The notes under the pieces: model-generated
Told to the model about the DNA's origin: nothing
What the model saw: the letters and a program-made list of their open reading frames with translations, nothing else
Databases searched by the model: none
Part shown: piece after piece, positions 17,859-62,626 of the stretch
Layout: every line of letters starts with the position of its first letter
Position numbering within the stretch: the stretch's first letter is position 1
Assembly (NCBI RefSeq): GCF_033100135.1
Contig: NZ_CP136920.1
Coordinates: forward strand, 558,001 to 622,000
From: Rubellicoccus peritrichatus
GTDB taxonomy: Bacteria > Verrucomicrobiota > Verrucomicrobiia > Opitutales > Cerasicoccaceae
Length of the DNA: 64,000 nt
Direction: 5' to 3'
Translations under genes and position numbers: made by a program

Positions 17859-17873
17859 TCGTATTCTACAAAG

Positions 17874-17949
17874 GGTAGCGTCCGGCGTCCTCGCCGGACA
17901 CATCCTCAGAAAGAAAACGTAATGTCCGGCGAGGACGCCGGACGCTACC
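17874..17949. repeat. REPIN-like double palindrome between convergent genes
   Basis: Two 26-bp arms (17874-17899 and 17924-17949) are perfect inverted copies. Each arm is itself a hairpin (GTCCGGCG, 4-base loop, CGCCGGAC). The arms are separated by a 24-bp AT-richer spacer. This nested layout is that of a REP doublet. It may also terminate transcription from lpxI and nhaC. Confidence 0.85.
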
Positions 17950-17958
17950 TGATCCACC

Positions 17959-20292: not shown

Positions 20293-20426
20293 AATATCAC
20301 TAAGATGGGTGAATGAAGCAGAGCAGGAGCTAAGTTCGTTTGCAGGAAGATGCCAAACGAAATCGCGAAAGTGCTCTTTTAGTAGTTGCATTTAGTATTT
20401 TTTCTGCGATCTAGAAATCAACTAAG

Positions 20427-20440
20427 TCATAACGCTATGA
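20427..20440. promoter_or_regulatory. Imperfect copy of the TCATAACGTTATGA palindrome
   Basis: TCATAACGCTATGA differs in one base from the palindrome found three times at 36.6-44.1 kb. It overlaps the ATG of the sugar isomerase gene at 20437. It may be an operator or chance. Confidence 0.3.
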
Positions 20441-21327
20441 AAGACACTATCAGTATTGGAACTTTGGCGGGACAAGGCCCCCGCACTGCAGATTATATCA
20501 AAGAGATTCTGCCACACGGCTTTGAGTCTTTTCAGATCAACTTCTGGATGAATCTCGGTGGCACCGACCTGAAAAAGCTATCGGGTGAGGTCAAAGAAGT
20601 CATCGCTGACAAAGCGGTTGTTTCCAGTCTGGGTATATTTGGTAATCCACTCGCTGATTCCAAAGAAGGCCAGGATGCCCGCGATGGTTGGGTTGCCTGT
20701 ATCGACCACGCTGCCGACTTTGGCACCGACCTCGTCTGCGGATTCGCGGGGCGCGTCATTGACAAGCCGGTTCCTGAGTCCATGGAGCGCTACAAGGAAG
20801 TCTTCGGCGATCTGGCCAAGCGTGCTGCTGACAAGGGCATACGGCTTGCCTTTGAAAATTGCCCAATGGGTGGTGACTGGAATCGCGGCGACTGGAATAT
20901 CGCTTTCAATCCGGCAGCATGGGATCTGATGTTTGACGCACTCCCCAATGACAACATCGGGCTCGAGTGGGAACCATGCCACCAGATGTGCCAGCTGATT
21001 GATCCGATGCCACAGCTTCGTAAGTACGCTGAGAAGATTTTCCACATCCATGGCAAGGATGCCACTGTCAGGAATCATCTGGTTAGTGAAAAAGGAATCT
21101 ATTCACCCGATCATTTTGCCTTTCATCGTCATCCTGGATTTGGTGACAGTAACTGGACGGATATCATCAGCGAACTCCGGGCCATTGGTTTCAAGGGAGC
21201 CATCGACATCGAAGGCTGGCATGATCCTGTTTACAAAGATGAGCTTGAAATGACAGGTCAGGTTCACGCCCTGCGCTACCTCAAACAGTGCCGCACCGAG
21301 CTGATTCCGGGTCCTAAAGGGTTTTAA
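20437..21327 (+). CDS. Sugar phosphate isomerase/epimerase (TIM barrel)
   Basis: 296 residues from ATG 20437. It belongs to the xylose-isomerase-like TIM barrel superfamily. AFENCPMGG (about 147) carries the first metal-ligand Glu. IGLEWEPCHQM, IFHIHGKDA and GAIDIEGWHDP hold the acidic and His ligands at the strand ends. FHRHPGFGDSNWTDIISEL is the usual GxGxxxW substrate-side segment. Members isomerise or epimerise ketoses or inositols; the substrate is unknown. It is related in kind to the isomerase at 44094, and its start overlaps a near-match of that cluster's palindrome. The gene stands alone. Confidence 0.8.
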   Translation: MKDTISIGTLAGQGPRTADYIKEILPHGFESFQINFWMNLGGTDLKKLSGEVKEVIADKAVVSSLGIFGNPLADSKEGQDARDGWVACIDHAADFGTDLVCGFAGRVIDKPVPESMERYKEVFGDLAKRAADKGIRLAFENCPMGGDWNRGDWNIAFNPAAWDLMFDALPNDNIGLEWEPCHQMCQLIDPMPQLRKYAEKIFHIHGKDATVRNHLVSEKGIYSPDHFAFHRHPGFGDSNWTDIISELRAIGFKGAIDIEGWHDPVYKDELEMTGQVHALRYLKQCRTELIPGPKGF

Positions 21328-21331
21328 ACGA

Positions 21332-21395
21332 AGCGGGGGCATTCCTGCCTCCATAAGTCATCTTAGGATCCGACGGGGGCAGGAATGCCCCCGCT
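21332..21395. repeat. Palindromic repeat, family B, copy 1
   Basis: Arms 21332-21349 and 21378-21395 are perfect 18-bp inverted copies (AGCGGGGGCATTCCTGCC). A second copy lies at 60590-60662 in opposite orientation and shares about 33 bases including GATCCTAAG of the spacer. It sits between the convergent isomerase and thiE genes. Confidence 0.85.
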
Positions 21396-21423
21396 CCTTT
21401 ATAGATTAGATGGTGACGACTCT

Positions 21424-27842: not shown

Positions 27843-27863
27843 GAGAATCAGGTTAAGTCTTGA

Positions 27864-28087
27864 GACCCGAAGGGCTGACGTAAAATAGCCCAGGGTAAGC
27901 GTAGCGCAGCCCTGGGGTAGAGATCATATAGAACACGATGAGGCCTGAAATGCTGACGCACTGGATCTTTTGAACAACCTTCTTGTGTCACCCCTACAGG
28001 GCTCAAACACGTTGAAACTCTTTTAACCCAGGGCTGCGCAACTGCGTTGCTTACCCTGGGCTATTTTACGTCGGCCCTTCGGGCCTC
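27864..28087. repeat. Large inverted repeat, family C, copy 1
   Basis: Left arm about 27866-27917 and right arm about 28026-28085 are imperfect inverted copies with a shared 35-bp core (CCCGAAGGGCTGACGTAAAA onward through GCCCAGGGTAAGC). A middle part carries AGGCCTGAAATGCTGACG. The same components recur at 62326-62506. Confidence 0.8.
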
Positions 28088-28281
28088 TCTCATTTTCATG
28101 AAATCAATACCCAATGAAAGTAGGCCCGAAGGCCACTTGAGTAGACCTACTCAAACAGGAAATTTGCTCTTCCTGCGACAACGCGTACTTAATGATGCCA
28201 TACTCGTTTTTGCATGAAACCCAATCGAGGTATTCGCCAGCCGATAGAGCAGAATCGAGAACCCCTTTCACTACACCATCA

Positions 28282-32644: not shown

Positions 32645-35600
32645 GCCATCACGAGCCATTACCCGACCAGGCGGAACGAGATCGCTTTCAAAACGAGCTT
32701 GAGCGCAACTTTTCGGTCATTGCCCCGGCGGGGGTTGGAAAAACTACGGCCATTGTTGAGCGCATTGGTCATATTGCTGAAACAGATGACTTTCGAGAGC
32801 ATCCCATCCTGCCAAAACTGGTACTCGTTACCTACACAAAGAAGGCCGCTGCTGAAATGCGTGATCGAGCGCGCCAGAAAATCGTGGGCACTGGCCCCAA
32901 TACAGCCGAGCGATTGGCTGGTTTCAATTCGGCATTCTTTGGAACGATCCATAGCTTTTGTCTGGAACTACTCCGGCGTTGGGGCTTTCACCTCGGCCTT
33001 TCTCCGGAACTTGAGTTGGTTGAGGATGATAAAACGCTCTGGCTTGAGTTTCTTCGCGACGAAGGAGATATACTCACCGACTTGCCACCCGAAGTTCAAA
33101 AAACACTTTCAAAGCATGTTAACCTGCGGGCCTTATCCGACCTCGCACGACATGCTGAGGCCGGACTAAAGCATACCGTAGCGGAACTCGGCCCTGTTCC
33201 CAAAGTTGATATAAGCGCATTGCTTTCTTATGAGGCAAAACGTAAAAACGCCCTAAAGAGTATCACCGAAACTCAAGCAAGACTTCGGAGCTGGGTGGAG
33301 GTCATCAAAGCCGATGAAGGCTGGGCCGGCATCCCCATAATCGATAAAGGTGGTAAAGAGTTTGTCGCATTAGGACGGGAAGTTTTTTCAGAATTGCGTG
33401 ACTGGCTGGGAGAAGCAGCCGCCATGGCCGTAGAAGCGCTTGCCAATCGTTACCGTCAATTCCGCATTGAACGCGGGCAAGTCCGATTCGACGATATGAT
33501 TTCATTAGCTCAGGAGCTGTTAACTATCCCTGCGGCATGCAATGCGATACGTGCCCAAGGTTATCGGTTAATTCTCGACGAAGCACAGGACACCGATCCG
33601 GTTCAGTTCGATGTACTCCTATCCGTGGCACAATCCACTGTTGATACAAAGCAATGGAAAGAATCATTCCCGGAAGCTGGACGGTTTTGCATGGTAGGCG
33701 ATCCACAGCAGTCGATCTATGCGGACCGGGCTGACATCCACACTTACTTACGTGTCGATGAGACTCTTAGACAATCCAAGGGCGGAGAGGCGGCTGAATT
33801 TACGGTGACGATGCGTTGTGATAAAGCGGTCGTCGACTGGGTCAATACGGCCACTCCGGCAGCCTTGAATGGCAGTGATCGCCAAGTGAGTTTTGTTCCA
33901 CTTCACGAGCGACCCTGGGCAGGCGACGGCGATGTATCTGTCATCCGCCTGACACCGGAAATGCCACCGAATCCACGCAAATCAACAGAGACGATACGGG
34001 ATGAAGCCAAAACAATTGCCGAATGGCTCTCCCATGCTTCACCTTCAGATTTTGGCGCCACTGACTGGTCAAAAGTCGCCCTCCTCTGCCCGCGTAAAAG
34101 CCAACTCGCGGCCTTGGCCGAAGCACTTGAGCATTTTGATATTCCCGTTCAAAATCATTCACGCAATGACACGCGAGGTGACGATCCAGCCATTGCCTGG
34201 GTCACGGCATTGATCGTTATTTTTGCAGAGCCCGACAACGTCTTCGAAATAGCTGGCGTCCTTCGTGAGATCTTTGCACTCAGCGATGAATCCATCGCAC
34301 AGTATGTTAGAAAGCACTACCATGCAGGCGAGCAACACCCACTCAATCTGGGCTCAAAGATTAGCGATTCAGGCCCAGTCAGCAAAGCACTGAAGCAGCT
34401 CGATGAGACACGAAAAGCAGCCCTTGACCTACCTCTACGGTCAGCACTACACAGAACAATTGAAAAGCTGCAGCTATCCGAACGCATCCAGTCCTTGCCA
34501 AACGGCAATATTGAAGGCCTTGAATCTCTAGTCGCAGAGGCTACTACTCAGGAAGAAGCTGGTTCATCGCTGAGCGAATGGGCGATAGTATTGAAAATGC
34601 GATTCACATCGAATGCTGGAGAGGCCAACCCTGAACCAGGAAAGATTCAACTGCTCACTTGCCAGAAGGCAAAAGGGCTACAATGGGGCACTGTAATCCT
34701 GCCCTTCTTCTTCTCAAAAATATCACCGCCCAGAAAAAGTTACCCTGCGTCTTACACCTTACCAAATGGACGTACTCAGATTGCTATCGACAAGGAGCAT
34801 CTAATTACTGATGCCGAAGACTCAGTCAAGCAGCGCACCATTCATTCGCTTGAACGCTTACTCTACGTTGCGATGACCAGGTCGCAACAACGCTTGATCA
34901 TCATCGACGATGAAGCTTATTTCCCAAAAGGATCTGACTCTTTTGCCGAACATCTCCGGATCACTGACAGTGGCCCAAATCGCAAAGCATGGGAATCGCT
35001 CACTACTTTTATCCCAGAGGAGCAGGCAATTATATCGGAAAAGGCAGCCGAGGAAAACAAACCAATTGACCTACCTCCGAAAGAAGCGCCACTCAACCTA
35101 TCCAGCATTGAGTTTATAAAGCGCACGCTACCGAGCTCACTAGCAAATCATGATGCAGGACACTATCATGACCGGAACGAACGTGACCGCCTGGCTGAAC
35201 CCGACTATCCTGAGGTTTCTCGTGGTGGTCCTGGTGGAGCTGATTACGGAAACTGGTGGCATGATGCCATGGAAGTGCTGCCATGGGAGCAACCAATGGC
35301 CGAATGGAAAGCATTTCTCAATGAACGACTCTCGATTTGTCCGTTTCCTGAGCGAGGCCAAAGTGAAATTGATTGCTTCATTGAAAGCGAAATAGCCCAA
35401 AAACTCTCACAAGCAGAAGTGGTTCGAACCGAAATTCCAATCGTCTGGCGGGCCAACGAAAGCACAGTCTACGATGGATCCATCGACCTCGCAGCAATGA
35501 CAAGTAAAGGAAAATGGTTGTTAGTGGATTGGAAGACAGACCGCGTCGGTAACGATCCGGCAGCGGAGTTGCTGGCCAGCTATGGCCCACAACTTGCAGC

Positions 35601-35691
35601 TTACCGCGATGCAGTAACTGGTATTTTTGCCACCCCTGAAGCAATGCTTTACAGCACTCGGACTGGCATCTGTGCAGTCCTGTCAGAATAA
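32641..35691 (+). CDS. addA: AddA-like helicase-nuclease (UvrD/RecB family)
   Basis: 1016 residues from the ATG that overlaps the addB stop. SF1A helicase motifs in order are Walker A VIAPAGVGKTTAIVERI (about 27-43), TYTKKAAAEMRDRAR, GTIHSFCLELL, LILDEAQDTDPVQF (about 310), MVGDPQQSIYADRADIHTYL, QLLTCQKAKGLQWGTVILPFF and LERLLYVAMTRSQQRLI. The C-terminal nuclease has YDGSIDLAAM, LLVDWKTDRV (about 960) and GPQLAAYRDAV. With AddB it forms a two-nuclease enzyme for repair of double-strand breaks. A terminator follows. Confidence 0.93.
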   Translation: MSHHEPLPDQAERDRFQNELERNFSVIAPAGVGKTTAIVERIGHIAETDDFREHPILPKLVLVTYTKKAAAEMRDRARQKIVGTGPNTAERLAGFNSAFFGTIHSFCLELLRRWGFHLGLSPELELVEDDKTLWLEFLRDEGDILTDLPPEVQKTLSKHVNLRALSDLARHAEAGLKHTVAELGPVPKVDISALLSYEAKRKNALKSITETQARLRSWVEVIKADEGWAGIPIIDKGGKEFVALGREVFSELRDWLGEAAAMAVEALANRYRQFRIERGQVRFDDMISLAQELLTIPAACNAIRAQGYRLILDEAQDTDPVQFDVLLSVAQSTVDTKQWKESFPEAGRFCMVGDPQQSIYADRADIHTYLRVDETLRQSKGGEAAEFTVTMRCDKAVVDWVNTATPAALNGSDRQVSFVPLHERPWAGDGDVSVIRLTPEMPPNPRKSTETIRDEAKTIAEWLSHASPSDFGATDWSKVALLCPRKSQLAALAEALEHFDIPVQNHSRNDTRGDDPAIAWVTALIVIFAEPDNVFEIAGVLREIFALSDESIAQYVRKHYHAGEQHPLNLGSKISDSGPVSKALKQLDETRKAALDLPLRSALHRTIEKLQLSERIQSLPNGNIEGLESLVAEATTQEEAGSSLSEWAIVLKMRFTSNAGEANPEPGKIQLLTCQKAKGLQWGTVILPFFFSKISPPRKSYPASYTLPNGRTQIAIDKEHLITDAEDSVKQRTIHSLERLLYVAMTRSQQRLIIIDDEAYFPKGSDSFAEHLRITDSGPNRKAWESLTTFIPEEQAIISEKAAEENKPIDLPPKEAPLNLSSIEFIKRTLPSSLANHDAGHYHDRNERDRLAEPDYPEVSRGGPGGADYGNWWHDAMEVLPWEQPMAEWKAFLNERLSICPFPERGQSEIDCFIESEIAQKLSQAEVVRTEIPIVWRANESTVYDGSIDLAAMTSKGKWLLVDWKTDRVGNDPAAELLASYGPQLAAYRDAVTGIFATPEAMLYSTRTGICAVLSE

Positions 35692-35709
35692 AGCTTGTGC
35701 TTTGCACAA

Positions 35710-35747
35710 AAAAAGACCGATGCAAAACACATCGGCCTCTTTTACAA
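35710..35747 (+). terminator. Intrinsic terminator after addA
   Basis: AGACCGATG pairs with CATCGGCCT (one weak pair) around a short loop and is followed by CTTTTAC. It lies ~20 bp after the addA stop. Confidence 0.65.
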
Positions 35748-35775
35748 GATAAGAAAACTTTTCTTCAACCAAAAC

Positions 35776-36549
35776 TTATGCTTTGTTCTTACGAAAACGA
35801 CGACTCAAGAGAACCAATCCTGCAATAACGCCGCCAAGAAACATGGCCTGCTCAGCTGGCTCAGGAATCTGAGTGGTGGTGACTATAAAGTCATCAATAC
35901 CAAACTGAATACCACTGGCTACTTCGACCTCGACCCGGCGAATGACAGTATCTCCTGCATATCCAAAAAATGAATAGTTATCACCTGGGTTATTGGCACT
36001 GAGCGTTACCGTTGAACCGATTTGATTGGTTCCTGCAATGTCACTGTAAACTCTAACATCAGCAGTTGACTGAAGACGAGTTACAGTGAATCCGACTCCA
36101 TATATTTCTTCACTGACCACGGATCCAAAAACGAACTCTGGAAAACTGATTGCAGCACCAGTTCCAGTAACACCGCCCCATACTAAACTATTCGGTGAAC
36201 TACTTACAAAATTAACGTCATCACTGACGAGTCTACCAAACCCAGCTGTCAGTAAATCAAAATTGACCCGAAAGTTCACCCCAGAAGTACCAGCAGTATA
36301 CAGCACACCGTTTATGACCTCACTGGGCACAAAACCTGAACCTCCAGTTGATGCTGATGCATCAAAGTTTGTTAGCATTGTATTCGCATCGTTATTAAAG
36401 TCCGTCGCAGAATAATTACCGAGTTCCTGCGTGAAGGTCTGTATCGTGACATCATCGCCAAGTACTGATGGGGTCGGGTCATCAACGTTAATGGCGAAAG
36501 TCATCCCAGCTGAAGCGAGGAAAAGGGTAATTGTCGATAGTGTTTTCAT
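35776..36549 (-). CDS. PEP-CTERM protein, paralogue of the fused N-terminal domain
   Basis: 257 residues: a signal peptide (MKTLSTITLFLASAGMTFA), then a beta-rich domain starting NVDDPTPSVLGDDV and ending FGIDDFIVTTTQ. The sorting signal IPEPAEQ (from 228), a hydrophobic helix and RRFRKNKA follow. The domain has the sequence pattern GDTVIRRVEVEV...GIDD typical of secreted PEP-CTERM proteins; its ligand is unknown. The same domain, about 220 residues, forms the start of the next gene upstream (40572), without the sorting signal. A palindromic operator lies 30-47 bp upstream of the ATG. The gene is last in a minus-strand row of three. Confidence 0.85.
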   Translation of the reverse strand: MKTLSTITLFLASAGMTFAINVDDPTPSVLGDDVTIQTFTQELGNYSATDFNNDANTMLTNFDASASTGGSGFVPSEVINGVLYTAGTSGVNFRVNFDLLTAGFGRLVSDDVNFVSSSPNSLVWGGVTGTGAAISFPEFVFGSVVSEEIYGVGFTVTRLQSTADVRVYSDIAGTNQIGSTVTLSANNPGDNYSFFGYAGDTVIRRVEVEVASGIQFGIDDFIVTTTQIPEPAEQAMFLGGVIAGLVLLSRRFRKNKA

Positions 36550-39500
36550 ATGTGCTTTTGAGTTGAAGTTATCTTGATATTCATAACGTTATGAATCATT
36601 TCCCATTCGTCAATCTTTTTGTCATGCCGAACAGGTAACAATTATGTAACACGAAATTGGAGGTTAGTGACATTAGGGCTTCTTATCCAGCTTAACCAGC
36701 GGAGTAGGGCTACTTCCTCCACTATTCGGAACAAGCGTGTCGTAAATTCTCACCTGATCTATCAATCCGGGAAATTTCCCACTATTAAAGGCCAAAATAT
36801 TGCTGCCGATGACGAAATTCCGTGAATTTACAGCTGATCTGACGGTCAAATTACTGCGATCATCAAGTATTTGGCCATCGATTGAGACAAACATGCGCCC
36901 CGCACCAGTGCCTCCAGTGCCATCCCAGGCGATTTTAAGATCATGCCATACTCCCGGCTGAATGATGCTGCTGACATCTACCTGCAGCTTGGCCCAGCCT
37001 TCGTCAGGATCATCGTAAGGTGAATCACCCCGAATACGATAAAAGTAGAGGTTACCAGCGCTAATTTGCGCAATCATCCAATCAGGACTTTTATTGCCAA
37101 AACTAAAAAGCACACCATCAGCCAGTGCGTCCATTTTGAATGAGCACTCAATAGTCCCCTCCAGGCCGATATCATGAGGCAAGCTCCCTTGAAGCACAAT
37201 CGGTGATTCGGTATTGCGGTAAACGGCCTCTCCCGAGACACCATCGCCTGTTGCCCCGGGTGCTTCTGTGACAACCCAGTTTGCTCTCAGGTCTGCTGGA
37301 ATTGCTACCCCAGGAAAGAGTGAAGTGGCATTGGTTCCGGTATAAATACGATATTCATGCTGAAGCGTTAGAGATTGACCAGGCTGAAGCAGAACCGAGT
37401 CCCCAAAGAGCTCCAGATTAAAACTCTGGTAGGTATGATCTAAATGAAGGTGAAGTTGATCGACTTCATTCGTATTGAATTCATTCAAAATCACCACTGC
37501 GTTGGCTGGAGAATAAACGCCCCACGTCGATGCGCTTGTGCTGATCGTGCTACCGCTGAGAGCAAGGTTTGAGACATCGAAACCATTATTTTGATTTTCA
37601 ACAACCAAGTATGTCCGATCCAGCGCCTCATCGAGTTTGAACTCCGGATGAACACGAATACGAGTCTGGCGGGCTTGTGTCGATACGTTCTCCAAAGTCG
37701 TGCTAATGATGAGCTTAGACGCGGTCCCATCCTGCAAAGTGTAGGTACGGGTAATGTCAACTCCATCAACGACACCGCCAACAGTTACATTATCGGGATC
37801 AGATGATTCAAGAGCCAGAGGCACCTCCCAACCGGGCGAAGCAAAATCGTCACCAGTATATTCCTCGTAGCCACCATAGCGGAAGTATGCATTACCTGTG
37901 TCGGCAAGACGACTCGTCAAAGGTTCATAAAGCAGATTGTCACCGGAACTGAGATCAATCATGCGAATAATACGTCCTCCAATTCCTGGTAGAATTCCGA
38001 TTTTTACTTCAGTATTTTCCAACCAGACAATCGACTCAGTCCGCTTATCCGATCGATATGTCAAATGCCTCAAAGTCTTTGCATCGCCATTTGCCATATC
38101 CTGGAGCCAAGAGGAATCAACCGTAGCCGGACCTCCCGTATTGATCTCGTAATCATTTGCGCCACGATTAATAAGCCAATCACCTGTTCCACCAAAAACC
38201 CACTGAGGGACAACAGCCTCTTCCACAAAATCAAGTGAAGCTTGCATATCGGTGTACAGTCCCTGGCCAACTGTATTACCAGCTGACAGACCTGCGTCCA
38301 ATGCAGCCAATTGCGACTGTGCTGTCTGCACAAACGACTCAGTAAAAATCAATGACGAAGGCACATTGACTTCGCGCCATAAAGACACACTCCAGTTATC
38401 ATTATCGTATGCTGTTTCAAGCGCTGTAAGGTAATCGTAAGCGTGCGACCAGGCAGATCCAAACGCTGCTTTGGTCCAGGTTTCAATCAATTCGTTCACA
38501 GTGGCATCCGGGTTCCATGCAAGTTGCGCAACAGCCCAATAAAGAAAAGCATTGTACTGCCAGTGCTCATTCCCCGCCTGGGTAAAATAAACTTTATAAT
38601 CCGGAGTAAGCCCCTCGAGATAGCCAACCATATCACGGGCCAAGCGAGCAAAACCAAGAGGTGTTTTGGCTGAACCTGCATTTGTTGGTACATGTAAAAT
38701 AAAGTAATCCCAAATACCAATACCACCGGCGCCAGAGTCTGCCCAGGATTCAAAAATATCGCGCGCATCCTGATTTAAATCGCTATAGATGGAATGAACA
38801 ATCGAACCCTGCCCAGCGTATCCGTGAGAAACTTGAGCGATGACATTACCCGGTAAACTAACACCGGGATACGGCTCGACATAGTTGGAGTAAGCAAGGT
38901 TAAGGATAAAACGATCAGGGTGACTCGTCACTACCTGATTGGCGACAGCGGTGGAAAACTCAACCATACGACGCGTCATGCTGCCCAATGGGCCTGGAAC
39001 AAAATTCTCGCCTCCGAGTGCCATTGCTGCAGGTGATTCATCCCATTTGATATCGCCGTCCGGCGGAACAAGCGGGACAACCCGACCATCAGAGTTCGCA
39101 TTGAACCAGTCCGTAACAAAATTCGATGCAATGGTTCGTACCGACGGATTGGTCAGTGCAAGATTCCCCTGCCCTGCTCCGAGTGGAACGCGCTGTCCCT
39201 TATAGAGTGCATAGTATTCCGGGTTTGTATCGAAATAAGTGTCATTCGGAACAATGTACTCAAAGTTATGAACGATATGTTGCCAATGAACCATACCTCC
39301 ACGGTCTTGCCATAAAAACCGATCGTCTCCAGTCATCAATTGATAGAGGATTTGCGGCCTCAAAGAGTAGCTAAAGTTAAGCCGGTTCTTCACCATCCAG
39401 TCGACAGTCAGTTTGATCTCATTCGGTGCTCTGTTGGCTGGATCAGGTAATTGTCCCGATGTCCCGATGTGACGAATGGTCATAGCGGGACGTTCGACCC

Positions 39501-39876
39501 GCTCACTAACGGGCAGGGTTAGATCAGGAGAATCCGGAACAACTTCACTGACAGGCTCAAGCCATCGACAACCAAGGTCCTCGAGAAAAGCATAGGCCGC
39601 ATAGAGTATCCCTCGATCACCACCACCAGCGAGAACCGTCTCGGCACTGGTCACTTCCACGACAAAAACTTCGTCTGCTGTTTCCGGCAGTGGATCCGTC
39701 AATTGGTCACGCCATTTATCAGAGGCACTCGTGTCTCCTAGATAGATTGGGTAAGCTCCTGAAACAGAACCGTTGATTGTAACTGTTGCACCACGTATTA
39801 GCTCCAGATAATGCTTCAATTCGGACGCAGCAAATGATTCCGTATCATTAGGAGATGATGGAAGAATAATATCCAC
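35868..39876. repeat. Tandem duplication unit, copy B (~4.0 kb)
   Basis: This copy runs from V233 of the fusion gene (39876) through its DUF4838 body and a 123-bp spacer into the domain of the PEP-CTERM gene, up to I228 (35868). The equivalent points of copy A lie exactly 4047 bp upstream. The relation is seen in protein alignment by eye, so the duplication is old. Confidence 0.75.
36579..36596. promoter_or_regulatory. 18-bp perfect palindromic operator candidate
   Basis: ATTCATAACGTTATGAAT is a perfect palindrome 30 bp upstream of the PEP-CTERM gene. On the minus strand TTGACG lies about 16 bp upstream of its TAACGT core, so it may overlap a -10 region. The central CG and even symmetry fit a LacI-type site. 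Confidence 0.7.
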
Positions 39877-40572
39877 ATCTCTGGTTTGCGGCACAACATA
39901 AGATGACTTCGGAATAGAAGTTTGCGTAACAATCAAATCGTCGATGCCAAAGTGATTACTCGCAACTTCGACTTCAACTCGCCGAATCACGGTATCACCC
40001 GCATATCCGTAAAACGAATACCCGCTACCCAGATTGTTTGCATCAAAAACGGTTGTGGAACTGATCTGATTATTCCCGTCAATATCACTGTAAAGCCGGA
40101 CTTTTGCAGTCGTCTGAAGACGGGTAATAGTAAATCCGACTCCATAGATCGGAGCACTGACAACGGCACCGCTGACAAACTCGGGAAATAGAATTACAGC
40201 ACCGTTTCCATTGCCCCAAACCAAAGCATTGGGACTACTGCTAACAAAGGTAGATCCATTGGTAATAATTCTACCAAATCCACCGGAAAGATTGCAATTG
40301 ATTCGAAAATCAACTCCCGAAAGCGCTTGGGTATAAAGAACCGAACCCAATGTATCTCCAACCGAAAAGGCTGAAGCGTCAAAATTCGTCAAAAGCGTTC
40401 CTGAGTCAGCATTGAACTGGCTGGCGGTGTAGTTACCTAGTTCCTGTTCAAAGCTTTGCGAGGTAACATTGCCCGCAAGGGATAAGGGTGTAGGATCATC
40501 AACATTTATGATAGCGGCATATGAGGCGCCGCAGCAAGCCAGGGTCAATACAAGGGCAGTTATATATTTCAT
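36673..40572 (-). CDS. Fusion: PEP-CTERM-paralogue domain + DUF4838 + mutarotase-like + LamG
   Basis: 1299 residues. The signal peptide (about 1-20) is followed by a domain (21-219) closely like the neighbouring PEP-CTERM protein. At TSIPKSS (219-224) the sorting signal is replaced by the DUF4838 body starting VDIILPSSPNDTESFAASELKHYL, as in GH67-type N domains. Next come AMTIRHIGTSGQLPDP, WMVKNRLNFS, GNLALTNPSVR, VVPLVPPDGDIKWDES and ILNLAYSNYVEPYPG of DUF4838. IGILPGIGGRIIRMIDLSSGDNLLYEPL, from about 845, is aldose-epimerase-like. The C terminus (about 1115-1290) is a LamG/concanavalin-like fold. It is probably a secreted carbohydrate-active protein, but no activity of this family is proven to my knowledge. 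Confidence 0.85.
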   Translation of the reverse strand: MKYITALVLTLACCGASYAAIINVDDPTPLSLAGNVTSQSFEQELGNYTASQFNADSGTLLTNFDASAFSVGDTLGSVLYTQALSGVDFRINCNLSGGFGRIITNGSTFVSSSPNALVWGNGNGAVILFPEFVSGAVVSAPIYGVGFTITRLQTTAKVRLYSDIDGNNQISSTTVFDANNLGSGYSFYGYAGDTVIRRVEVEVASNHFGIDDLIVTQTSIPKSSYVVPQTRDVDIILPSSPNDTESFAASELKHYLELIRGATVTINGSVSGAYPIYLGDTSASDKWRDQLTDPLPETADEVFVVEVTSAETVLAGGGDRGILYAAYAFLEDLGCRWLEPVSEVVPDSPDLTLPVSERVERPAMTIRHIGTSGQLPDPANRAPNEIKLTVDWMVKNRLNFSYSLRPQILYQLMTGDDRFLWQDRGGMVHWQHIVHNFEYIVPNDTYFDTNPEYYALYKGQRVPLGAGQGNLALTNPSVRTIASNFVTDWFNANSDGRVVPLVPPDGDIKWDESPAAMALGGENFVPGPLGSMTRRMVEFSTAVANQVVTSHPDRFILNLAYSNYVEPYPGVSLPGNVIAQVSHGYAGQGSIVHSIYSDLNQDARDIFESWADSGAGGIGIWDYFILHVPTNAGSAKTPLGFARLARDMVGYLEGLTPDYKVYFTQAGNEHWQYNAFLYWAVAQLAWNPDATVNELIETWTKAAFGSAWSHAYDYLTALETAYDNDNWSVSLWREVNVPSSLIFTESFVQTAQSQLAALDAGLSAGNTVGQGLYTDMQASLDFVEEAVVPQWVFGGTGDWLINRGANDYEINTGGPATVDSSWLQDMANGDAKTLRHLTYRSDKRTESIVWLENTEVKIGILPGIGGRIIRMIDLSSGDNLLYEPLTSRLADTGNAYFRYGGYEEYTGDDFASPGWEVPLALESSDPDNVTVGGVVDGVDITRTYTLQDGTASKLIISTTLENVSTQARQTRIRVHPEFKLDEALDRTYLVVENQNNGFDVSNLALSGSTISTSASTWGVYSPANAVVILNEFNTNEVDQLHLHLDHTYQSFNLELFGDSVLLQPGQSLTLQHEYRIYTGTNATSLFPGVAIPADLRANWVVTEAPGATGDGVSGEAVYRNTESPIVLQGSLPHDIGLEGTIECSFKMDALADGVLFSFGNKSPDWMIAQISAGNLYFYRIRGDSPYDDPDEGWAKLQVDVSSIIQPGVWHDLKIAWDGTGGTGAGRMFVSIDGQILDDRSNLTVRSAVNSRNFVIGSNILAFNSGKFPGLIDQVRIYDTLVPNSGGSSPTPLVKLDKKP

Positions 40573-43500
40573 GCTTAGGGGTTGGGGATGGGTTATTTAT
40601 TGTCTTTTTCACAACGTTATGAAATTTGAGCATGAGTCAACAATCATTATGTAACATAGTAGTTACGGCCAAGTGACGTCAAAATTGGAGAGGTGTCACA
40701 AAGGCCGTTTATCCAGGCGAACCAATGGGGTCAAATCATCATCCGCATCCGTAACGATGCTTTCGTAAACTCTAACCTGATCAATACTGCCAGGGAACTT
40801 CCCCCTGTTGATGGCACGTGTATTGCCGCCAATAAGCAGGGCCGGGGCATTGGTAACGGCCCGAATGGTCTGATCACTGCGGTCATCAAGAATCTCACCA
40901 TCAAGTGCAATCATGATGCGACCTGCACGCGTACCGGCACTTCCATCCCAGGCCAGGGTCAAGTCATACCAGAGGTCCGGCTCAACCATCTCGGTGATGT
41001 CGATCTCCAGCTTGGACCAGCCCTCATCGGCACCATCGAAGGGAGAGTCACCACGAGTGCGATAAAGATACAATATGCCTTTACTGATACGGGCCATCAT
41101 CCAGTCCGGATCCTTTTTGCCAAAGCTAAAGAGAACAGCATCCTGGATTTCCGCAGGAGGCACATCCAGCCGGAAAGAGCATTCAATTGCCCCAGCCAAC
41201 CCTATCTCTGAAGGCACTCCTATGATTCTGACAGGCCCTTTATCCAACCGGTATACAGTCTCACCAGAAACTCCATCGCCAGCGGTTTCGGATTCCTCAA
41301 TGACAATCCAGTTCTTCCGAGGGTCCGCTCTTTCAACGACAGCCACATCGGGAAAGAGCCGAGTGGCGGCATTTCCACTGAAGATACGATATTGATGCTC
41401 AAGTACAACCGACTCACCTGGCTGCAAAATGACAGGCTCGCCAAAGACTTCCAAATTAAAACTCTGTACACTTGGATCCACATGAAGATGAAGTTGCTCC
41501 ACCTGATCGGCCTTAAAGTCATTCAAAACGGCCACTTGATTGGCAGGTGAATAGACTCCCCAGGTTGTGGCATCGGTATCTTTTAAGATGTCACTATGAT
41601 AAAGTGTCGCAACTTCGAAATCACCATCCTCACCTACGATGAGCTTTGTCTCATCGAGCGTTTCGTCGACTTTGAATTCCGGATGGATACGAATACGAGT
41701 CTGACGTGGCTCCGCTGATGTATTGCGTAATGTAGTACGAATTCTCAACCTGGAGGCAGCACCATCTTCCAAAATATAGCCACGGGTAACGGCGACACCA
41801 TCAACCTGGCCTTTGAGGATAAGCTTATCAGCATCACTGTATTCGATTTGCATCGGAGTCTCCCAGCCAGGGGAAGCAAAAGCATTGCTGGTATACTCTT
41901 CATAGCCCCCATAACGGAAATAGGGTGCGCCTGGATTTGAAAGACGATCCAACTCTGGTTCAAAGAGCAAATTTTCACCTGAACGACGATCAATCATGCG
42001 AATCACACGTCCACCAATCCCGGGCAGGATGCCGATTTCCACTTGATCATTCCTCAACCATGAAATCGGCTCGCTACGCTTCATTCCACGGAACTTCATA
42101 TGCTTCAGGGTGCGCTCATCGCTATCGCCAGTAAGCGTCTCAAATAACGCATCGCCTTCAACAACATCAGGGCCAGCCGCATTGATCACATAGGCATCCT
42201 CACCACGCTCAATGACCCATTCACCGGATTTTCCAAAGATCTTCTGCGGCGCCACGGTGCTCTCAGCAAAATCGAGTGACGCCTGCATCCGACGATACAA
42301 GTCCTGACCAAGGACATTATCTTCGGCAATGCCAGCCTTCAATGCCTTCAAGTCCGATTGGGCGCGACTGAGGAATGACTCAGTGAAAATGAGAGGTGAA
42401 GGCACATTGACTTCACGCCAAATACCAACAGTCCACTCGTCATTGTCATACGTTTCCTCCAACGCCTTGTAGTAATCATATGCCGGTTCCCATGCATTAC
42501 CAAAAGCTGCCTTGGTCCAGGTTTCAATTAATTGATCAACCGTTATTTCAGGATTCCAGGCAAGCTGGGCAACCGCCCAATAGATCAACGCGTTATACTG
42601 CCAGTGCTCATTACCAGCCTGAGTGAAGTAAACTTTGTACTCCGGTTCGAGGTTCCCCAAGTACTCGATCATATCACGTGCTACGCGAATCAAACCCAAT
42701 GGAGTTTTAGGTGATCCAGCACGATCCGGGACATGCAAAATAAAATAATCCCATATCCCGATACCACCAGCTCCGGAGTTGGCCCAGGCTTCAAATATAT
42801 CACGAGCCTCTTCATTGCGATCACTATAGATGGAATGAATAAACGACCCTTGCCCAGCATACCCATGAGCAACCTGTGCAATAACATTCTTAGGCAAGGT
42901 CAGACCTTCATAAGGCTCAACATAGTTTGCGTAGGCGAGATTAAGGATGTAACGATCCGGATAATCCTCAGCCAATTGGTCTGCAACTGCGGCAGAAAAC
43001 TCTGCCATGCGTCGGCTCATGCTCCCTTCCGGGCCACGAACGAAGTTCTTGCCTCCAAGCGCCATTCCTTCCGGTGACTCATCCCATTTTATCGCACCGT
43101 CTGGTGGAACCATGGGCACAACCCGTCCGTCTGGGTTTTGATCAAACCAGTTTGCAGAAAATTCTGCGGCAAGGCGACGGACATCCGGATTTGTCAGCGC
43201 AAGATTCCCTCCTTCAGGTCCAAGCGGAACCCGACGGCCTTTGTAAAGAGCATAGTATTCTGGATGTTCCTCAAAATAGCGCTCGTTCGGGAAGATAAAC
43301 TCAAAGTTATGTACAATGTGCTGCCACTTGACCATCCCACCGCGTTTTTCCCAAATATTACGATCCGCCGGTGGCATGATCCGATAAAGCAGCTGTGGTC
43401 GGAGGGCGAAGCTGAAGTTCAACCGATTTTTCACCATCCAATCAACTGTCTCTACAATTTGATCAGGTGCTTTATTCAAAGGATCGGGCAACTGCCCTGA

Positions 43501-43923
43501 AGTGCCGAGGTGTCGAATCGTCATGGCAGGACGCTCAATACGCTCACCAACTGTCAGCGTCAGGTCTGGCGATACAGGAACGACATCCCCTTCTTCTCCT
43601 GGCTCCAACCAAGCGCAGCCCAAGTCTTCAAGGAAAGCATAGGCCGCGTAAAGCGTCCCACGATCGCCGCCACCCGCAAGCACGGCTTGGTCTTCCTTGA
43701 TTGCGACCACAAAAACCTCCTCAGCCGTCTCCGGCAGCGGATCCGTTAACTCGGCACGCCATGGATCCGAGGCTTTGGTATGACCAAGATATATGGAGAA
43801 AGCAGACGGATTCGCAGAGTCAACTGTGACTGGCTTGCCGCGCATCATCGTCAAATAACGAGAAAGCTCCTCAGCCGCAAATGACTCCGTCATCGTAGGG
43901 CCGGAGGGCAGAATGATATTCAC
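39915..43923. repeat. Tandem duplication unit, copy A (~4.0 kb)
   Basis: This copy runs from V46 of the upstream DUF4838 gene (43923) through its body and a 123-bp spacer into the N-terminal domain of the fusion gene, to I220 (39915). It matches copy B in order, in spacer length (123 bp both) and in total length (4008 bp both). Confidence 0.75.
40607..40624. promoter_or_regulatory. Palindromic operator candidate, one mismatched pair
   Basis: TTTCACAACGTTATGAAA lies 35 bp upstream of the fusion gene. It matches the palindrome at 36579 except one half-site base (CACAAC for CATAAC). TTGACT lies ~15 bp before the core on the minus strand. Confidence 0.6.
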
Positions 43924-44058
43924 TGGCTGGCCCTCAGGGATCGTAAATAAACCCTTGTTCCCCTCAGCATTAAGAAAGGATATGGCCAGCAAATACAGAA
44001 CTCCTGTAAGCGCGAGAAAAGATGTTTTATTTGAGAGGGGGATTGACATATTAGCCAT
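40696..44058 (-). CDS. DUF4838 protein with GH67N-like, mutarotase-like and LamG-like domains
   Basis: 1120 residues; an ATG at 44049 is an alternative start. The signal segment is TSFLALTGVLYLLAISFLNA. A GH67-N-like domain (about 44-150: VNIILPSGP, SFAAEELSRYL, LAGGGDRGTLYAAYAFLEDLGCAWLEP) is followed by DUF4838 (about 170-560). A linker, a galactose-mutarotase-like domain (VEIGILPGIGGRVIRMIDRRSGE, RYGGYEEYT, RIRIHPEFK; about 665-905) and a LamG-like end (IECSFRLDVPP...) come next. The domain set suggests binding or cleavage of a polysaccharide, perhaps with uronic acids. It is the unfused member of the duplicated pair and carries its own signal peptide. Confidence 0.85.
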   Translation of the reverse strand: MANMSIPLSNKTSFLALTGVLYLLAISFLNAEGNKGLFTIPEGQPVNIILPSGPTMTESFAAEELSRYLTMMRGKPVTVDSANPSAFSIYLGHTKASDPWRAELTDPLPETAEEVFVVAIKEDQAVLAGGGDRGTLYAAYAFLEDLGCAWLEPGEEGDVVPVSPDLTLTVGERIERPAMTIRHLGTSGQLPDPLNKAPDQIVETVDWMVKNRLNFSFALRPQLLYRIMPPADRNIWEKRGGMVKWQHIVHNFEFIFPNERYFEEHPEYYALYKGRRVPLGPEGGNLALTNPDVRRLAAEFSANWFDQNPDGRVVPMVPPDGAIKWDESPEGMALGGKNFVRGPEGSMSRRMAEFSAAVADQLAEDYPDRYILNLAYANYVEPYEGLTLPKNVIAQVAHGYAGQGSFIHSIYSDRNEEARDIFEAWANSGAGGIGIWDYFILHVPDRAGSPKTPLGLIRVARDMIEYLGNLEPEYKVYFTQAGNEHWQYNALIYWAVAQLAWNPEITVDQLIETWTKAAFGNAWEPAYDYYKALEETYDNDEWTVGIWREVNVPSPLIFTESFLSRAQSDLKALKAGIAEDNVLGQDLYRRMQASLDFAESTVAPQKIFGKSGEWVIERGEDAYVINAAGPDVVEGDALFETLTGDSDERTLKHMKFRGMKRSEPISWLRNDQVEIGILPGIGGRVIRMIDRRSGENLLFEPELDRLSNPGAPYFRYGGYEEYTSNAFASPGWETPMQIEYSDADKLILKGQVDGVAVTRGYILEDGAASRLRIRTTLRNTSAEPRQTRIRIHPEFKVDETLDETKLIVGEDGDFEVATLYHSDILKDTDATTWGVYSPANQVAVLNDFKADQVEQLHLHVDPSVQSFNLEVFGEPVILQPGESVVLEHQYRIFSGNAATRLFPDVAVVERADPRKNWIVIEESETAGDGVSGETVYRLDKGPVRIIGVPSEIGLAGAIECSFRLDVPPAEIQDAVLFSFGKKDPDWMMARISKGILYLYRTRGDSPFDGADEGWSKLEIDITEMVEPDLWYDLTLAWDGSAGTRAGRIMIALDGEILDDRSDQTIRAVTNAPALLIGGNTRAINRGKFPGSIDQVRVYESIVTDADDDLTPLVRLDKRPL

Positions 44059-44064
44059 AATGAA

Positions 44065-44078
44065 TCATAACGTTATGA
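44065..44078. promoter_or_regulatory. Perfect palindromic operator between divergent genes
   Basis: TCATAACGTTATGA lies in the 35-bp gap between the DUF4838 gene (ATG 44058, minus) and the isomerase gene (ATG 44094, plus). One bound regulator could control both directions. It is 7 bp from the minus-strand ATG, which leaves little room for an SD and favours the ATG at 44049. Confidence 0.7.
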
Positions 44079-44093
44079 ATTTTTCAAGAATAG

Positions 44094-45056
44094 ATGTCAA
44101 AAGTTCCAAAAAATTTCTTCCAACTGGCAGGTGACTTCGGATTCGACTCATTAGATTCGCAAGGTATTGACGGCCTCGAAGAGCTGCGAGGCCTTGGATT
44201 TCATGGTGTCTACCCGCAAGATCTCTTCTGCACTATTAATCGTGGAGATGATGATACTCAAATCCTGTTCGAGAGTAAAGAGGAACGTCTGCAGACCCGG
44301 AGTGAATCAGAAGTCGAAGCTTTCGCTAAGGCCGTCTCATCCAAGGGCCTGACCCTTGAATCTTCCCATTTCAATCAAACATTGCAGCCTCCAGGAGAGC
44401 CTGTGGAATGGATTTTTCCACGTCACGAAGCATTAGTGAATTTGGCAAATGTAGCCGGGCTGGATCGGATCACGACTCACATCGGCTGGATGTATGGATT
44501 GGTTGCATCAGAATACACCGGAAGTGCCGCTAAGGACTTTGCCAGCGGTGCAATTTCCCTACGTGGCTTACACCTGACTGCTCGTGAAGCCTATGGCGGC
44601 CTCGATGCAATCCGCAAGAACTCGCTGACAATCTATCGAAATCTCTGTGATGAGGCAGCAAAATATGGAATCACAGTGACTGTTGAAACCAGCTGTATTG
44701 AAGTTTTAGAGATAAACACTAAAGGCGATGAAATACGAGATTTCATCAAGGATGTCGGTCGTGATAATCTCGCGGTTTGCCTTGATCCCGGACATTGCCT
44801 CTGGAATGGCGTGTCTCCAGTCGACTTGGCTCGCGATCTGGGAAGTCTCATCGTCGAGACTCACTTTCATGATAATAATGGCGATCACGACAGCCATATG
44901 CCCTTGGGAACCGGTAGCATTGATTGGCTGGGACTTGCAAAAGTGATGCTGAACTTTGGCTACAAAGGCATCATCACCTTCGAACAAAAAAAGCATGCCA
45001 CCAACATGCAGAACTGGTTTCAGGTCCTCGAACAAATCGAACAAAATGGAAATTGA
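44094..45056 (+). CDS. Sugar phosphate isomerase/epimerase (TIM barrel)
   Basis: 320 residues of the xylose-isomerase-like TIM barrel superfamily. LESSHFNQTLQPPGEP, RITTHIGWMYG, GITVTVETSCIEVLEI (metal-ligand Glu), VCLDPGHCLWNG, IVETHFHDNNGDHDSHMPLGTGSIDW and IITFEQKKH supply the usual acidic and His ligands at strand ends. Such enzymes interconvert keto and aldo sugars or act on inositols. It starts beside the divergent operator and overlaps the HAD gene by 11 bp, so isomerase, HAD and Gfo/Idh look like one catabolic operon coupled to the DUF4838 genes. Confidence 0.85.
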   Translation: MSKVPKNFFQLAGDFGFDSLDSQGIDGLEELRGLGFHGVYPQDLFCTINRGDDDTQILFESKEERLQTRSESEVEAFAKAVSSKGLTLESSHFNQTLQPPGEPVEWIFPRHEALVNLANVAGLDRITTHIGWMYGLVASEYTGSAAKDFASGAISLRGLHLTAREAYGGLDAIRKNSLTIYRNLCDEAAKYGITVTVETSCIEVLEINTKGDEIRDFIKDVGRDNLAVCLDPGHCLWNGVSPVDLARDLGSLIVETHFHDNNGDHDSHMPLGTGSIDWLGLAKVMLNFGYKGIITFEQKKHATNMQNWFQVLEQIEQNGN

Positions 45057-45702
45057 TCCAAAGGTAAAAGCGGTCTGCTTCGATATCGACGGAACACTCG
45101 TTGATGATCGATATCCCAGTGCTCAAATCCACGAACGATTCCTCGGTGGCAACTATATCCTGCACCTGCTCGGTGACATGATCCAAACAAGTGGACATCA
45201 GGATGCTCATAATGCACTATTGGCCTACACCGAGGTGAATGTCTACTGGGATTATTCCGATATAATCGACCATTTCAATTTGGATAGTTTCCTGGTGACC
45301 GAGTGGATTCGGCTGTGGCATAAAAATCACCTTGTGGCTCTCTGGCGAAACGTTCAATTGATTCACAAGCTTCGTAACAAAGGCTACAAGATCTACATTA
45401 TCAGTAATAACCCGCATACTGGCTGCTTGTTCAAACTGGAACACACAGGGCTTGTCGACCTGGATGGCAATGGAGTCATTGACGAAATTTTCGGCTCCAA
45501 TCGTGGCCTTGGTCAGAAATGGGACATCGGGTTCTGGAAGCGCGTGATCGAACAATCCCCCTACCCTGCTGAGGCGATGGCCATGATTGGAGACAATCCA
45601 GTGGAGGACGCAGAAGTCCCACTCGCGGCGGGCTTTTGCCAGAGCTTTCTCGTTGATAGTGAAGGTAAATTACAGGAAGCACCACAAATCAATGTGGTGT
45701 AG
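45046..45702 (+). CDS. HAD-family hydrolase
   Basis: 218 residues from the ATG at 45046, which overlaps the isomerase end by 11 bp. Motif I is VCFDIDGTLVDDRYPS (about 9-24), motif II IYIISNNPHTG (about 117-127) and motif IV MAMIGDNPVEDAEVPLAAGF (about 182-201). A helical cap with several Trp/His residues lies between. It probably removes phosphate from a sugar phosphate or related compound. A dedicated role with the isomerase is suggested by the overlap. The substrate is not visible from sequence. Confidence 0.85.
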   Translation: MEIDPKVKAVCFDIDGTLVDDRYPSAQIHERFLGGNYILHLLGDMIQTSGHQDAHNALLAYTEVNVYWDYSDIIDHFNLDSFLVTEWIRLWHKNHLVALWRNVQLIHKLRNKGYKIYIISNNPHTGCLFKLEHTGLVDLDGNGVIDEIFGSNRGLGQKWDIGFWKRVIEQSPYPAEAMAMIGDNPVEDAEVPLAAGFCQSFLVDSEGKLQEAPQINVV

Positions 45703-45779
45703 ATTTTTCCTCAAAACAAAATAACCCTAGTTTTAGATTATTCCTCCCAAAGGAATGACTTAACCTTTATAAAAAACTC

Positions 45780-46943
45780 ATGGAAGATAGAAAAATCAAA
45801 ATTGGTGCCATTGGTCTCGGACTTCGTCTGACCGGGGTTTTGCAACACCTACTGGGCCAGTCGAAAAATATCGAACTCGCGGCCGTTTGCGACACCAACG
45901 ACGCATGGAAAGACTGGGCGACCGAACAAGGAATGCCAATGCCCGAGTCGGTTACCAGCCATGATGACCTGGTGCAACGTTCAGACATTGAATGGATCTT
46001 TATTGGCTCTCCAAATTGTCTCCACCGCGAACACGTTTGTGCAGCCCTGGATGCAGGCAAGCATGTCTTTGCCGAAAAACCACTCGCAACCAATCTAGAA
46101 GACACCAGCGCTATGCTCGAATCATGGAGGCGGAGCGGTTGCCAGTTCATAATAGGTTTCACACTACGCTTCTCACCCCACTATCGCAAAATTAAAGCAC
46201 TGCTGGACGAAGGCGTGGTGGGCGAGCTCATCAGTTTTGAGTTCAATGAAACCATCGACTTTAATCACGGTGGATTCATCATGGGCGGCTGGCGTAACCA
46301 GCGCGAATACTCCGGCACGCATCTTCTTGAAAAATGCTGCCATGACATCGACCTCGCAAATTGGATGACGGAAAGCCGTGCCTCGCGAGTTGCTTCTTTC
46401 GGCGGTCTTAATTTTTTCAAACCCGAAAATGCGTATCACATAGAGCGTGTTGGGAAAAACGCTGATGGAAAAAAAGCATTCCAGCTCTGGTCACCTGAAA
46501 GCCATCAAAATCCATTTACCTGTGACAAAAATATCAACGACAATCAGGTCGCAATTATCGAATATGAAAATGGTGTTCGTGCGACTTTTCATGCGAACTG
46601 CAATGCGGCGATTCTGGAGCGCAGAATGTATATCCTTGGAAGCGAAGGTGCCATCCGTGCCGACGTGATTACGGGCAACATTGAAGTAAAGCGCATCGGG
46701 TTCGAGGAGGAAACTCGTTTCGTAGAGACGGGCGCATCGGGCGGCCACGGAGGCGGCGATGAGGTGCTCGCAGCCGAAGTTGCAGAAGCGATGTTTCACG
46801 GAAAAGCACCGAGCTTTTCAATGATGGAAGGCGCGCTTTCAGCCGCAACGGTCTTTGCACTTGATGACGCCTGCGACAGTGGCCAGGTCGTTGATTGCAG
46901 TAAGTATTTGAAAGCACTAACCGCCGAGAACGTTCTGGCTTAG
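45780..46943 (+). CDS. Gfo/Idh/MocA-family NAD(P)-dependent oxidoreductase
   Basis: 387 residues. The N-terminal Rossmann fold begins IKIGAIGLGLRLTGVLQHLL (GxGxxx pattern near 10-15). HVFAEKPLATNLEDT near 96-110 has the EKP motif with the catalytic-site Lys. The C-terminal domain has GTHLLEKCCHDIDLANWM, with the catalytic His-Asp pair, and RATFHANC. Family members oxidise or reduce sugars, inositols and their derivatives. It lies 77 bp after the HAD gene on the same strand. Its last 27 bp overlap the end of the convergent gspF gene. Confidence 0.9.
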   Translation: MEDRKIKIGAIGLGLRLTGVLQHLLGQSKNIELAAVCDTNDAWKDWATEQGMPMPESVTSHDDLVQRSDIEWIFIGSPNCLHREHVCAALDAGKHVFAEKPLATNLEDTSAMLESWRRSGCQFIIGFTLRFSPHYRKIKALLDEGVVGELISFEFNETIDFNHGGFIMGGWRNQREYSGTHLLEKCCHDIDLANWMTESRASRVASFGGLNFFKPENAYHIERVGKNADGKKAFQLWSPESHQNPFTCDKNINDNQVAIIEYENGVRATFHANCNAAILERRMYILGSEGAIRADVITGNIEVKRIGFEEETRFVETGASGGHGGGDEVLAAEVAEAMFHGKAPSFSMMEGALSAATVFALDDACDSGQVVDCSKYLKALTAENVLA

Positions 46944-60328: not shown

Positions 60329-60589
60329 CCTTGTCCGAGCAGACGCTATGTTGGACGAAGCCCGACAGCCGATATTCGGACAAAACTCCGTTCTGGCCTT
60401 ATGGCAAAGCTCAAGCGCCTTCGATGGCCACAAGACCATTCGCCCACAACATTACGTTTAGACAAAAGCATTAACAATAGAACCCTTGATGGCGGTAAGT
60501 AATTCATGCCTCGATAAGAACAAAATCAGACATGGCGCGCAACATAAAAAGTGAAAATTTGAGCACTTTTTTATTTTGATAAAACCAAA

Positions 60590-60662
60590 GGAGCGGGGGC
60601 ATTCCTGCCCCCGTCAGATCCTAAGCAAATACAACACACGGGGGTAGGAATGCCCCGCTCCC
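60590..60662. repeat. Palindromic repeat, family B, copy 2
   Basis: Arms are imperfect inverted copies of GAGCGGGGGCATTCCTGCCC with the trailing CCGT. The left arm plus GATCCTAAG of the spacer agree with copy 1 (21332-21395) read on the other strand. Confidence 0.85.
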
Positions 60663-62308: not shown

Positions 62309-62626
62309 GGCCAAAGGACATTCATAAGGCCCGAAGGGCTGATATAATCAAGCCCAGGGTAAGCGATGTTAATCGCGCAGCCCTGGGTTTCATTGTTTTT
62401 GAATCATAGAAGGCCTGAAAGGCTGACATATTCGGCATCCTTGAATGGTGCTACTATGTCAGCCTTTCAGGCCTCTAATTTCTTTATTCATCAGCCCTTT
62501 GGGCCTCACTATAGGAACTACTTGAGTGTCTGCTGGCACAAGCGACAGAACCGATTCCATTTGCATTGCATTTTGTGGTTTTATTATACTCCAAAAGTCA
62601 TCACACAAACGCCAATCTCAAAAAAA
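62309..62626. other. Intergenic region made mostly of repeats
   Basis: The 318-bp gap is largely a family C element (62326-62506). The remaining ~115 bp before the small membrane gene shows no recognised feature. Confidence 0.55.
62326..62506. repeat. Inverted repeat, family C, copy 2
   Basis: AAGGCCCGAAGGGCTGATAT, then AGCCCAGGGTAAGCG and GCGCAGCCCTGGGTTT, followed by a perfect pair AGGCCTGAAAGGCTGACATA / TATGTCAGCCTTTCAGGCCT (62411-62474) and a last half TCAGCCCTTTGGGCCT. The parts match copy 1 at 27864-28087. Confidence 0.8.

Follow-up and report, generated by a model that had tools for sequence, protein, structure and literature searches.

How a gene that joins the start of one neighbour to the body of the other came to stand between the two is the question raised by a row of three minus-strand genes in Rubellicoccus peritrichatus. 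The row lies in a window of 64,000 nucleotides (positions 558001-622000 of the 5.8 Mb single-contig genome, NZ_CP136920.1; coordinates are those of the window unless a locus or the genome is named) and consists of a DUF4838 gene (A), a fusion gene (F) and a PEP-CTERM gene (B), in the order A-F-B. We propose, with a probability of about 0.82, that F goes back to a tandem duplication of the whole A-B pair or of part of it. The genes and their parts are as follows:

40696-44058, minus strand: gene A, DUF4838 protein of 1120 amino acids, defined by its open reading frame (ORF) and Pfam matches, with a signal-peptide-like start and GH67N-like, DUF4838, DUF5107-like and LamG regions
40573-40695, minus strand: spacer A-F, 123 bp
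36673-40572, minus strand: gene F, 1299 amino acids, a B part (signal-peptide-like start, jelly-roll-like domain, decayed PEP motif) joined to the mature body of A
39901-40572, minus strand: part of F from B, its last residues IPKSS being a remnant of IPEPA
39871-39900, minus strand: junction zone of F, 10 codons of ambiguous origin, in which 6 and 6 of 15 bases agree with A and 3 and 5 of 15 with B
36673-39870, minus strand: part of F from A, the mature enzyme without the signal peptide of A, with 63% amino acid identity to A
36550-36672, minus strand: spacer F-B, 123 bp
35776-36549, minus strand: gene B, PEP-CTERM protein of 257 amino acids, with a signal-peptide-like start, jelly-roll-like domain, IPEP, helix and basic tail

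The ORFs and gap lengths agree with the sequence-only reading of this locus, which had claimed the same three genes with two gaps of 123 bp, and the alignments bear out its description of F as a B-like start followed by a DUF4838 body. Approximately the first 220 residues of F match B (66% amino acid identity over 198 columns), and the remainder matches A from just behind the signal-peptide-like start of A (1063 columns). At the nucleotide level the copies are 70.8% identical across 1.4 kb (blastn, expectation value (E) about 1e-77), and thus their similarity is not due to chance. The offset of 4047 bp claimed for both junctions is indeed equal at the two ends; it is not constant along the alignment, where it goes from 4047 to 4014 and back to 4047. 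The equality results from insertions and deletions that cancel, and it therefore carries less weight than first claimed.

The break had been placed exactly at the IP of the PEP motif, and here the alignment gives a different answer. The homology to B continues past IP: B reads ATT CCT GAG CCA GCT (IPEPA) and F reads ATT CCG AAG TCA TCT (IPKSS), with 11 of 15 bases in common, against an in-frame background with a mean of 3.7 in which 1 of 1347 positions reaches 11. Since this homology extends through IPEPA/IPKSS, the duplication probably included the PEP motif, which would have decayed afterwards through substitutions of single bases (E to K, P to S and A to S). Homology to A is clear in F from about 39870, the join lies within 39900-39871, and the cut that removed the membrane helix and basic tail would lie just after the PEP motif. 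The IPE codons common to A and B were considered as a crossing point and rejected, since the register pairs TIPEG of A with VVPQT of F and not with IPKS. No tandem repeat array was found in 34000-46000. The loss of the sorting signal in F, which had also been claimed, stands: the C-terminus of B has IPEP, a helix in the structural model (residues 233-256) and an RRFRKNK tail, corresponding to a PEP motif, membrane helix and basic cluster, and in F the IPKS is followed by the enzyme body, without PEP motif, helix or basic tail.

Relatives of the locus were searched in overlapping genome samples; in the order and phylum scans with the B alignment, at most 6-7 candidates per genome were scored. 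With F as query, 20 of 54 genomes (own included) gave some match at E ≤0.001, and close homologues of both parts of F were found among them, besides R. peritrichatus, only in Cerasicoccus maritimus NBRC 105382 and in Opitutia bacterium UBA4506, a metagenome-assembled genome (MAG) from another family. Four of the 372 genomes of the order sample matched at E ≤1e-30 (R. peritrichatus, Cerasicoccus, UBA4506 and G036, the last in the DUF4838 region only), and four genomes matched the B alignment at E ≤1e-5, G001 being weak (E 3e-7). The class sample, in which C. maritimus is not among the genomes listed, gave 10 of 384 genomes at E ≤1e-25, the close ones being R. peritrichatus and UBA4506. The B alignment detected 5 of 387 genomes in the phylum sample (R. 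peritrichatus, G001, UBA4506, G743 and G805, the last two from elsewhere in the phylum). Among the B matches of the order and phylum scans, a long frame was found only for F itself (1307 codons; 254-287 in the others), and an N-terminal fusion to the B domain was seen in no other genome of these two scans. A B match of UBA4506 that falls within an open frame of 1083 residues was rejected as a fusion, since the ORF list (249 amino acids) and the B scan (254) give a separate gene. A scan of named genomes returned three loci, those of Cerasicoccus and UBA4506 and a partial remote match. One genome (G947), whose contig carries a partial A but gives no match to B, entered neither the trees nor the order counts, and A is present at E ≤1e-50 in 3 of 12 genomes of the order of G743.

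The unduplicated order A-B, which the sequence-only reading suggested looking for in relatives, is found in the UBA4506 MAG, where B stands directly behind A, and isomerase and HAD genes are divergent from A. Cerasicoccus has a single A, divergent from isomerase-HAD, with B about 3.5 kb away and the isomerase, the HAD gene and an ABC-transporter-like gene (named by eye) between A and B; homologues of LacI, pilin-like, symporter, A, B, isomerase and HAD genes form one cluster. The order in G743 and G805 is LacI-isomerase-B-A-pilin-like-HAD, with all genes on the same strand; B precedes A there, the two being unfused, and a symporter lies within the fetched stretch of G743 and not of G805. These two gene sets (L068:7702-18420 and L069:5070-12663) have a different LacI-type regulator.

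Trees were rooted with the syntenic outgroups G743 and G805, and the weak G001 match was excluded from the B-domain tree. The body tree is (UBA4506,(Cerasicoccus,(A,F))), with support of 98/99 for A+F and 67/66 for Cerasicoccus with A+F; these values are 99/99 and 81/89 when both halves are joined. Because the bodies of A and F are sisters in this rooting, the duplication most likely postdates the split from Cerasicoccus. On the joined data, a position of F outside A, Cerasicoccus and UBA4506 is rejected (approximately unbiased test, p-AU 0.025), as is a position of A outside the rest (p-AU 0.012), and the unrooted body quartet separates (A,F) from (Cerasicoccus,UBA4506), its two alternatives having p-AU values of 0.0005 and 0.0006. 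The relative ages of the two copied parts overlap: against Cerasicoccus they are 0.81 (0.73-0.89) for the body and 0.74 (0.56-0.95) for the B domain, and against UBA4506 0.72 (0.65-0.78) and 0.54 (0.40-0.71). A and F are identical at 35% of their fourfold sites, with 28% expected, and this near saturation of the silent sites indicates that the duplication is old.

The palindrome TTCATAACGTTATGAA occurs at each of the three genes:

36580-36595, no strand: 0 mismatches, upstream of B
40608-40623, no strand: 1 mismatch, upstream of F in spacer A-F
44064-44079, no strand: 1 mismatch, between A and the divergent isomerase gene

The window holds 4 sites at ≤3 mismatches, with 0.27 expected and 0 of 100 shuffles reaching this number, and the 5.8 Mb genome holds 7 sites at ≤2 mismatches, compared with 2 for a reversed control pattern. 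Three of the seven are those at A, F and B, and one each is found at a LacI gene, a PhyH-family gene, a second isomerase-like gene of the window and a long ORF of locus L045. At the LacI locus (L043:6140-9856, genome 658139-661855, about 57 kb from A-F-B), the site (7205-7220) lies between the LacI gene (6140-7168) and a pseudopilin-like gene, after which comes a sodium/solute symporter gene. The UBA4506 and Cerasicoccus loci have 3 sites each, with 0.06 and 0.07 expected, in the same places: the LacI/pilin-like gap, the A/isomerase gap and upstream of B. No site was found in the stretches retrieved from G743 and G805; the LacI proteins of these two genomes share 26-27% identity with that of R. 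peritrichatus. TTCATAACGTTATGAA is thus likely the operator of a regulon, passed on to F, and a LacI-type repressor is predicted to bind it.

The similarity of the spacers A-F and F-B is kept when the operator is removed (as good a score in 5 of 500 single-base shuffles), and it lies in the left part, beyond the palindrome (again 5 of 500). In both spacers, and in that of UBA4506, a TTGAC precedes the palindrome by 12-13 bases, as read by eye from the sequences. Together, the left-spacer similarity, the palindrome and TTGAC suggest that F seems to carry the control region of B. No promoter is named here, since a promoter scan gave 10 sites against 11.9 in shuffles.

For the remaining palindrome sites, the PhyH-family gene (L044:5381-6082) has its site, with 1 mismatch, upstream at 6169-6184 and a sulfatase-like gene (named by eye) nearby, and may belong to the regulon. 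The site at 20426-20441, with 2 mismatches, lies at the probable start codon (ATG) of a sugar-isomerase-like gene with a TIM barrel (ORF 20386-21327, plus strand; named by eye) and may be due to chance; that inside the long ORF of L045 probably is. Beyond A, the plus-strand neighbours are:

44094-45056, plus strand: sugar isomerase/epimerase-like TIM barrel (AP_endonuc_2), divergent from A, with homologues in 4 of 4 related A and B loci
44956-45702, plus strand: HAD-family hydrolase, ORF as listed, the true start being probably internal
45780-46943, plus strand: Gfo/Idh/MocA oxidoreductase, with no homologue found in the related loci, for which reason its membership is unsure

Both A and F exceed the Pfam cut-off of 26.6 bits for DUF4838 (PF16126), with 100.4 and 96.9 bits, and both have LamG above its cut-off and GH67N and DUF5107 matches near theirs. 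In a PDB sequence search the best match of the A alignment was a weak one to GH67 (E 0.0067), and A of G743 gave a best E of 0.1 with unrelated names; a model of A built from 4 sequences (mean predicted local distance difference test score (pLDDT) 50) was not used. A is probably a secreted hydrolase, and A and F are both predicted to be active. One DUF4838 protein is labelled GH163 in a table of one study (PMC9870897), and a GH163 of Bacteroides thetaiotaomicron is described in another as stripping LacNAc antennae off N-glycans (PMC10154615). BT1044, considered as a GH163 enzyme, was dropped because it is placed with GH18, and no catalytic residues were used.

For B, the Pfam scan gave no family above its cut-off, TIGR02595 gave no match at E ≤0.1, and the PEP-CTERM family NF038120 matched at 20.2 bits, below its cut-off of 80; B of Cerasicoccus reaches 17.8 bits against TIGR02595, with a cut-off of 16. 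Exosortase genes were found in 3 of 3 genomes searched, with 5 matches to PF09721 in R. peritrichatus, all above cut-off. The model of B (mean pLDDT 50, with 67-86 per block for residues 151-220 and a C-terminal helix) gave fold matches to CBM29, CBM22, CBM61 and other jelly rolls with Z up to 9.4 (CBM29), in a list from which absence excludes no family, and the PDB sequence search with the B alignment gave none at E ≤10. With low confidence, the B domain resembles a carbohydrate-binding jelly roll, and B may bind glycan. F would then be secreted as an enzyme carrying its binding module in cis, beside a parent pair working in trans.

These observations can be joined in the following history. 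A small regulon, probably for glycan uptake and breakdown, would have contained a secreted A and, downstream, B as an exosortase-type surface protein. Once the lineage had separated from Cerasicoccus, F would have been created as a third gene between A and B by a tandem duplication spanning ~4 kb, which reached from a point just within the mature part of A to one right behind the PEP motif of B. From B, F would have received the signal peptide and binding-like domain, in frame with the mature enzyme, together with the upstream region and the operator, but neither the membrane helix nor the basic tail, and the PEP motif would have decayed afterwards. A surface-sorted binding partner acting in trans would so have become a cis module with its operator, upstream region and signal peptide, giving a new hydrolase that belonged to the old regulon from the start; we regard this fuller statement as evenly balanced.

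The tandem origin claimed by the sequence-only reading is supported by the A-B order of UBA4506, the body tree and the overlapping ages; the single step that it also claimed is less secure, since a two-step route leaves the same result. In the latter, the whole pair would have been duplicated (A-B-A-B) and the first B later fused to the second A by a deletion between the two, and the occurrence of both A-B (UBA4506) and B-A (G743, G805) in relatives is what is expected if tandem copies form and are then differentially lost. This route requires an extra event, however, and the 10-codon junction zone holds no recognisable remnant of a B tail or of an A signal peptide, so we consider it doubtful. 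If F did arise by tandem duplication of the pair, most of the probability falls on one step and the remainder on two. An origin of F from a B-A operon, by stop loss between the genes and subsequent placement between A and B, would make use of the arrangement of G743 and G805, where B is directly upstream of A. The F body, however, is 63% identical to A and only 40-41% to A of these two genomes, both trees place F with its neighbours, the B-domain tree with weak support, and the flanking A, spacer and B would need separate explanations, which makes this origin highly improbable.

A further alternative concerns function and not origin: F may be a decaying by-product under relaxed constraint, with no role of its own. 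The F body has about twice as many unique changes as A, both with Cerasicoccus (133 vs 63, chi-square 25.0) and with UBA4506 (119 vs 58, chi-square 21.0); no significant difference is seen between B and the F domain (24 and 18; 23 and 15). Of the 260 positions at which five unfused homologues are invariant, the F body has also lost 22, including the start methionine, which a fused body cannot keep. Against this, the frame of 1299 codons stayed open while silent sites neared saturation, F keeps 238 of the 260 invariant positions (A, in the mirror control, 238 of 249) and 23 of 26 invariant acidic residues, and the palindrome upstream of F was kept, so that we find a by-product improbable.

Tandem duplication of the A-B pair is thus preferred, and several results weigh against it or against its dating and consequences. 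B is not adjacent to A in Cerasicoccus and two distant relatives have the order B-A, and hence gene order is labile. For the body alone, neither F outside the other three (p-AU 0.118) nor A outside the rest (p-AU 0.054) is rejected. The sequence-only reading expects both halves of F to be closest to the neighbours, and the body does join A; the B-domain tree has the same shape, with F joining B at a weak support of 43/29, and its quartet favours no topology (p-AU 0.55, 0.56 and 0.29). With remote DUF4838 outgroups the support for A+F is 51/4, and four remote outgroup sets gave three root positions (on F, on A and between pairs) with no tested clade rejected. The spacers show no similarity right of the operator (356 of 500 shuffles reach the score), and microhomology was not found at the breaks, the longest common word near both points being 6 bases, which 686 of 1000 shuffles reach. 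The excess of unique changes in F and the loss of invariant positions (22 of 260 vs 11 of 249 in A, Fisher p 0.07) make a reduced constraint on the F body possible. As for the binding domain, the first 90 residues of the B model are unreliable (pLDDT <35 in most blocks) and its best Z is little above the 7-8 typical for models without clear matches.

Elsewhere in the window, inverted repeats of a few families were observed (27855-28092, 62320-62395, 62400-62485, 17870-17955 and 21362-21400 with 60587-60625), some of them near-identical at a distance, such as 21362-21400 and 60625-60587, with 97% identity over 39 bp.

The gain of binding modules by hydrolases is usually visible only as finished architectures. 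At this locus the two parents and the chimera can be seen side by side, together with the repeated palindrome, and a relative shows the unduplicated order; the route can therefore be reconstructed and tested. F also shows fusion as a way to shed a PEP-CTERM signal, and the locus outlines a small conserved set around a DUF4838 subfamily (LacI, sodium/solute symporter, pseudopilin-like protein, isomerase, HAD hydrolase, DUF4838 and PEP-CTERM proteins). A report of such a fusion was not found among the literature matches listed, from a search that left subscription journals mostly outside. The process is known in kind; the architecture of F and its traceable route appear to be new within what was searched.

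Chimeric genes from tandem duplication are a known general mechanism. As in such chimeras, F is flanked by both of its full-length parents, and the spacers that separate it from them are similar; unlike them, it is old and bacterial, lies in a small regulon, carried the operator along and has its prior order preserved in a relative. A and F resemble DUF4838 (PF16126) proteins in scoring far above the cut-off, and F differs from these in its N-terminal fusion to a B domain. The CBM29, CBM22 and CBM61 jelly rolls are among the best fold matches of the B model, at about 9-18% identity and with a low-confidence model. Compared with PEP-CTERM/exosortase proteins (PMC1569441), B has the corresponding signal-peptide-like start, IPEP, helix and basic tail, whereas F retains the B domain, has lost the helix and tail and has its motif decayed to IPKS.

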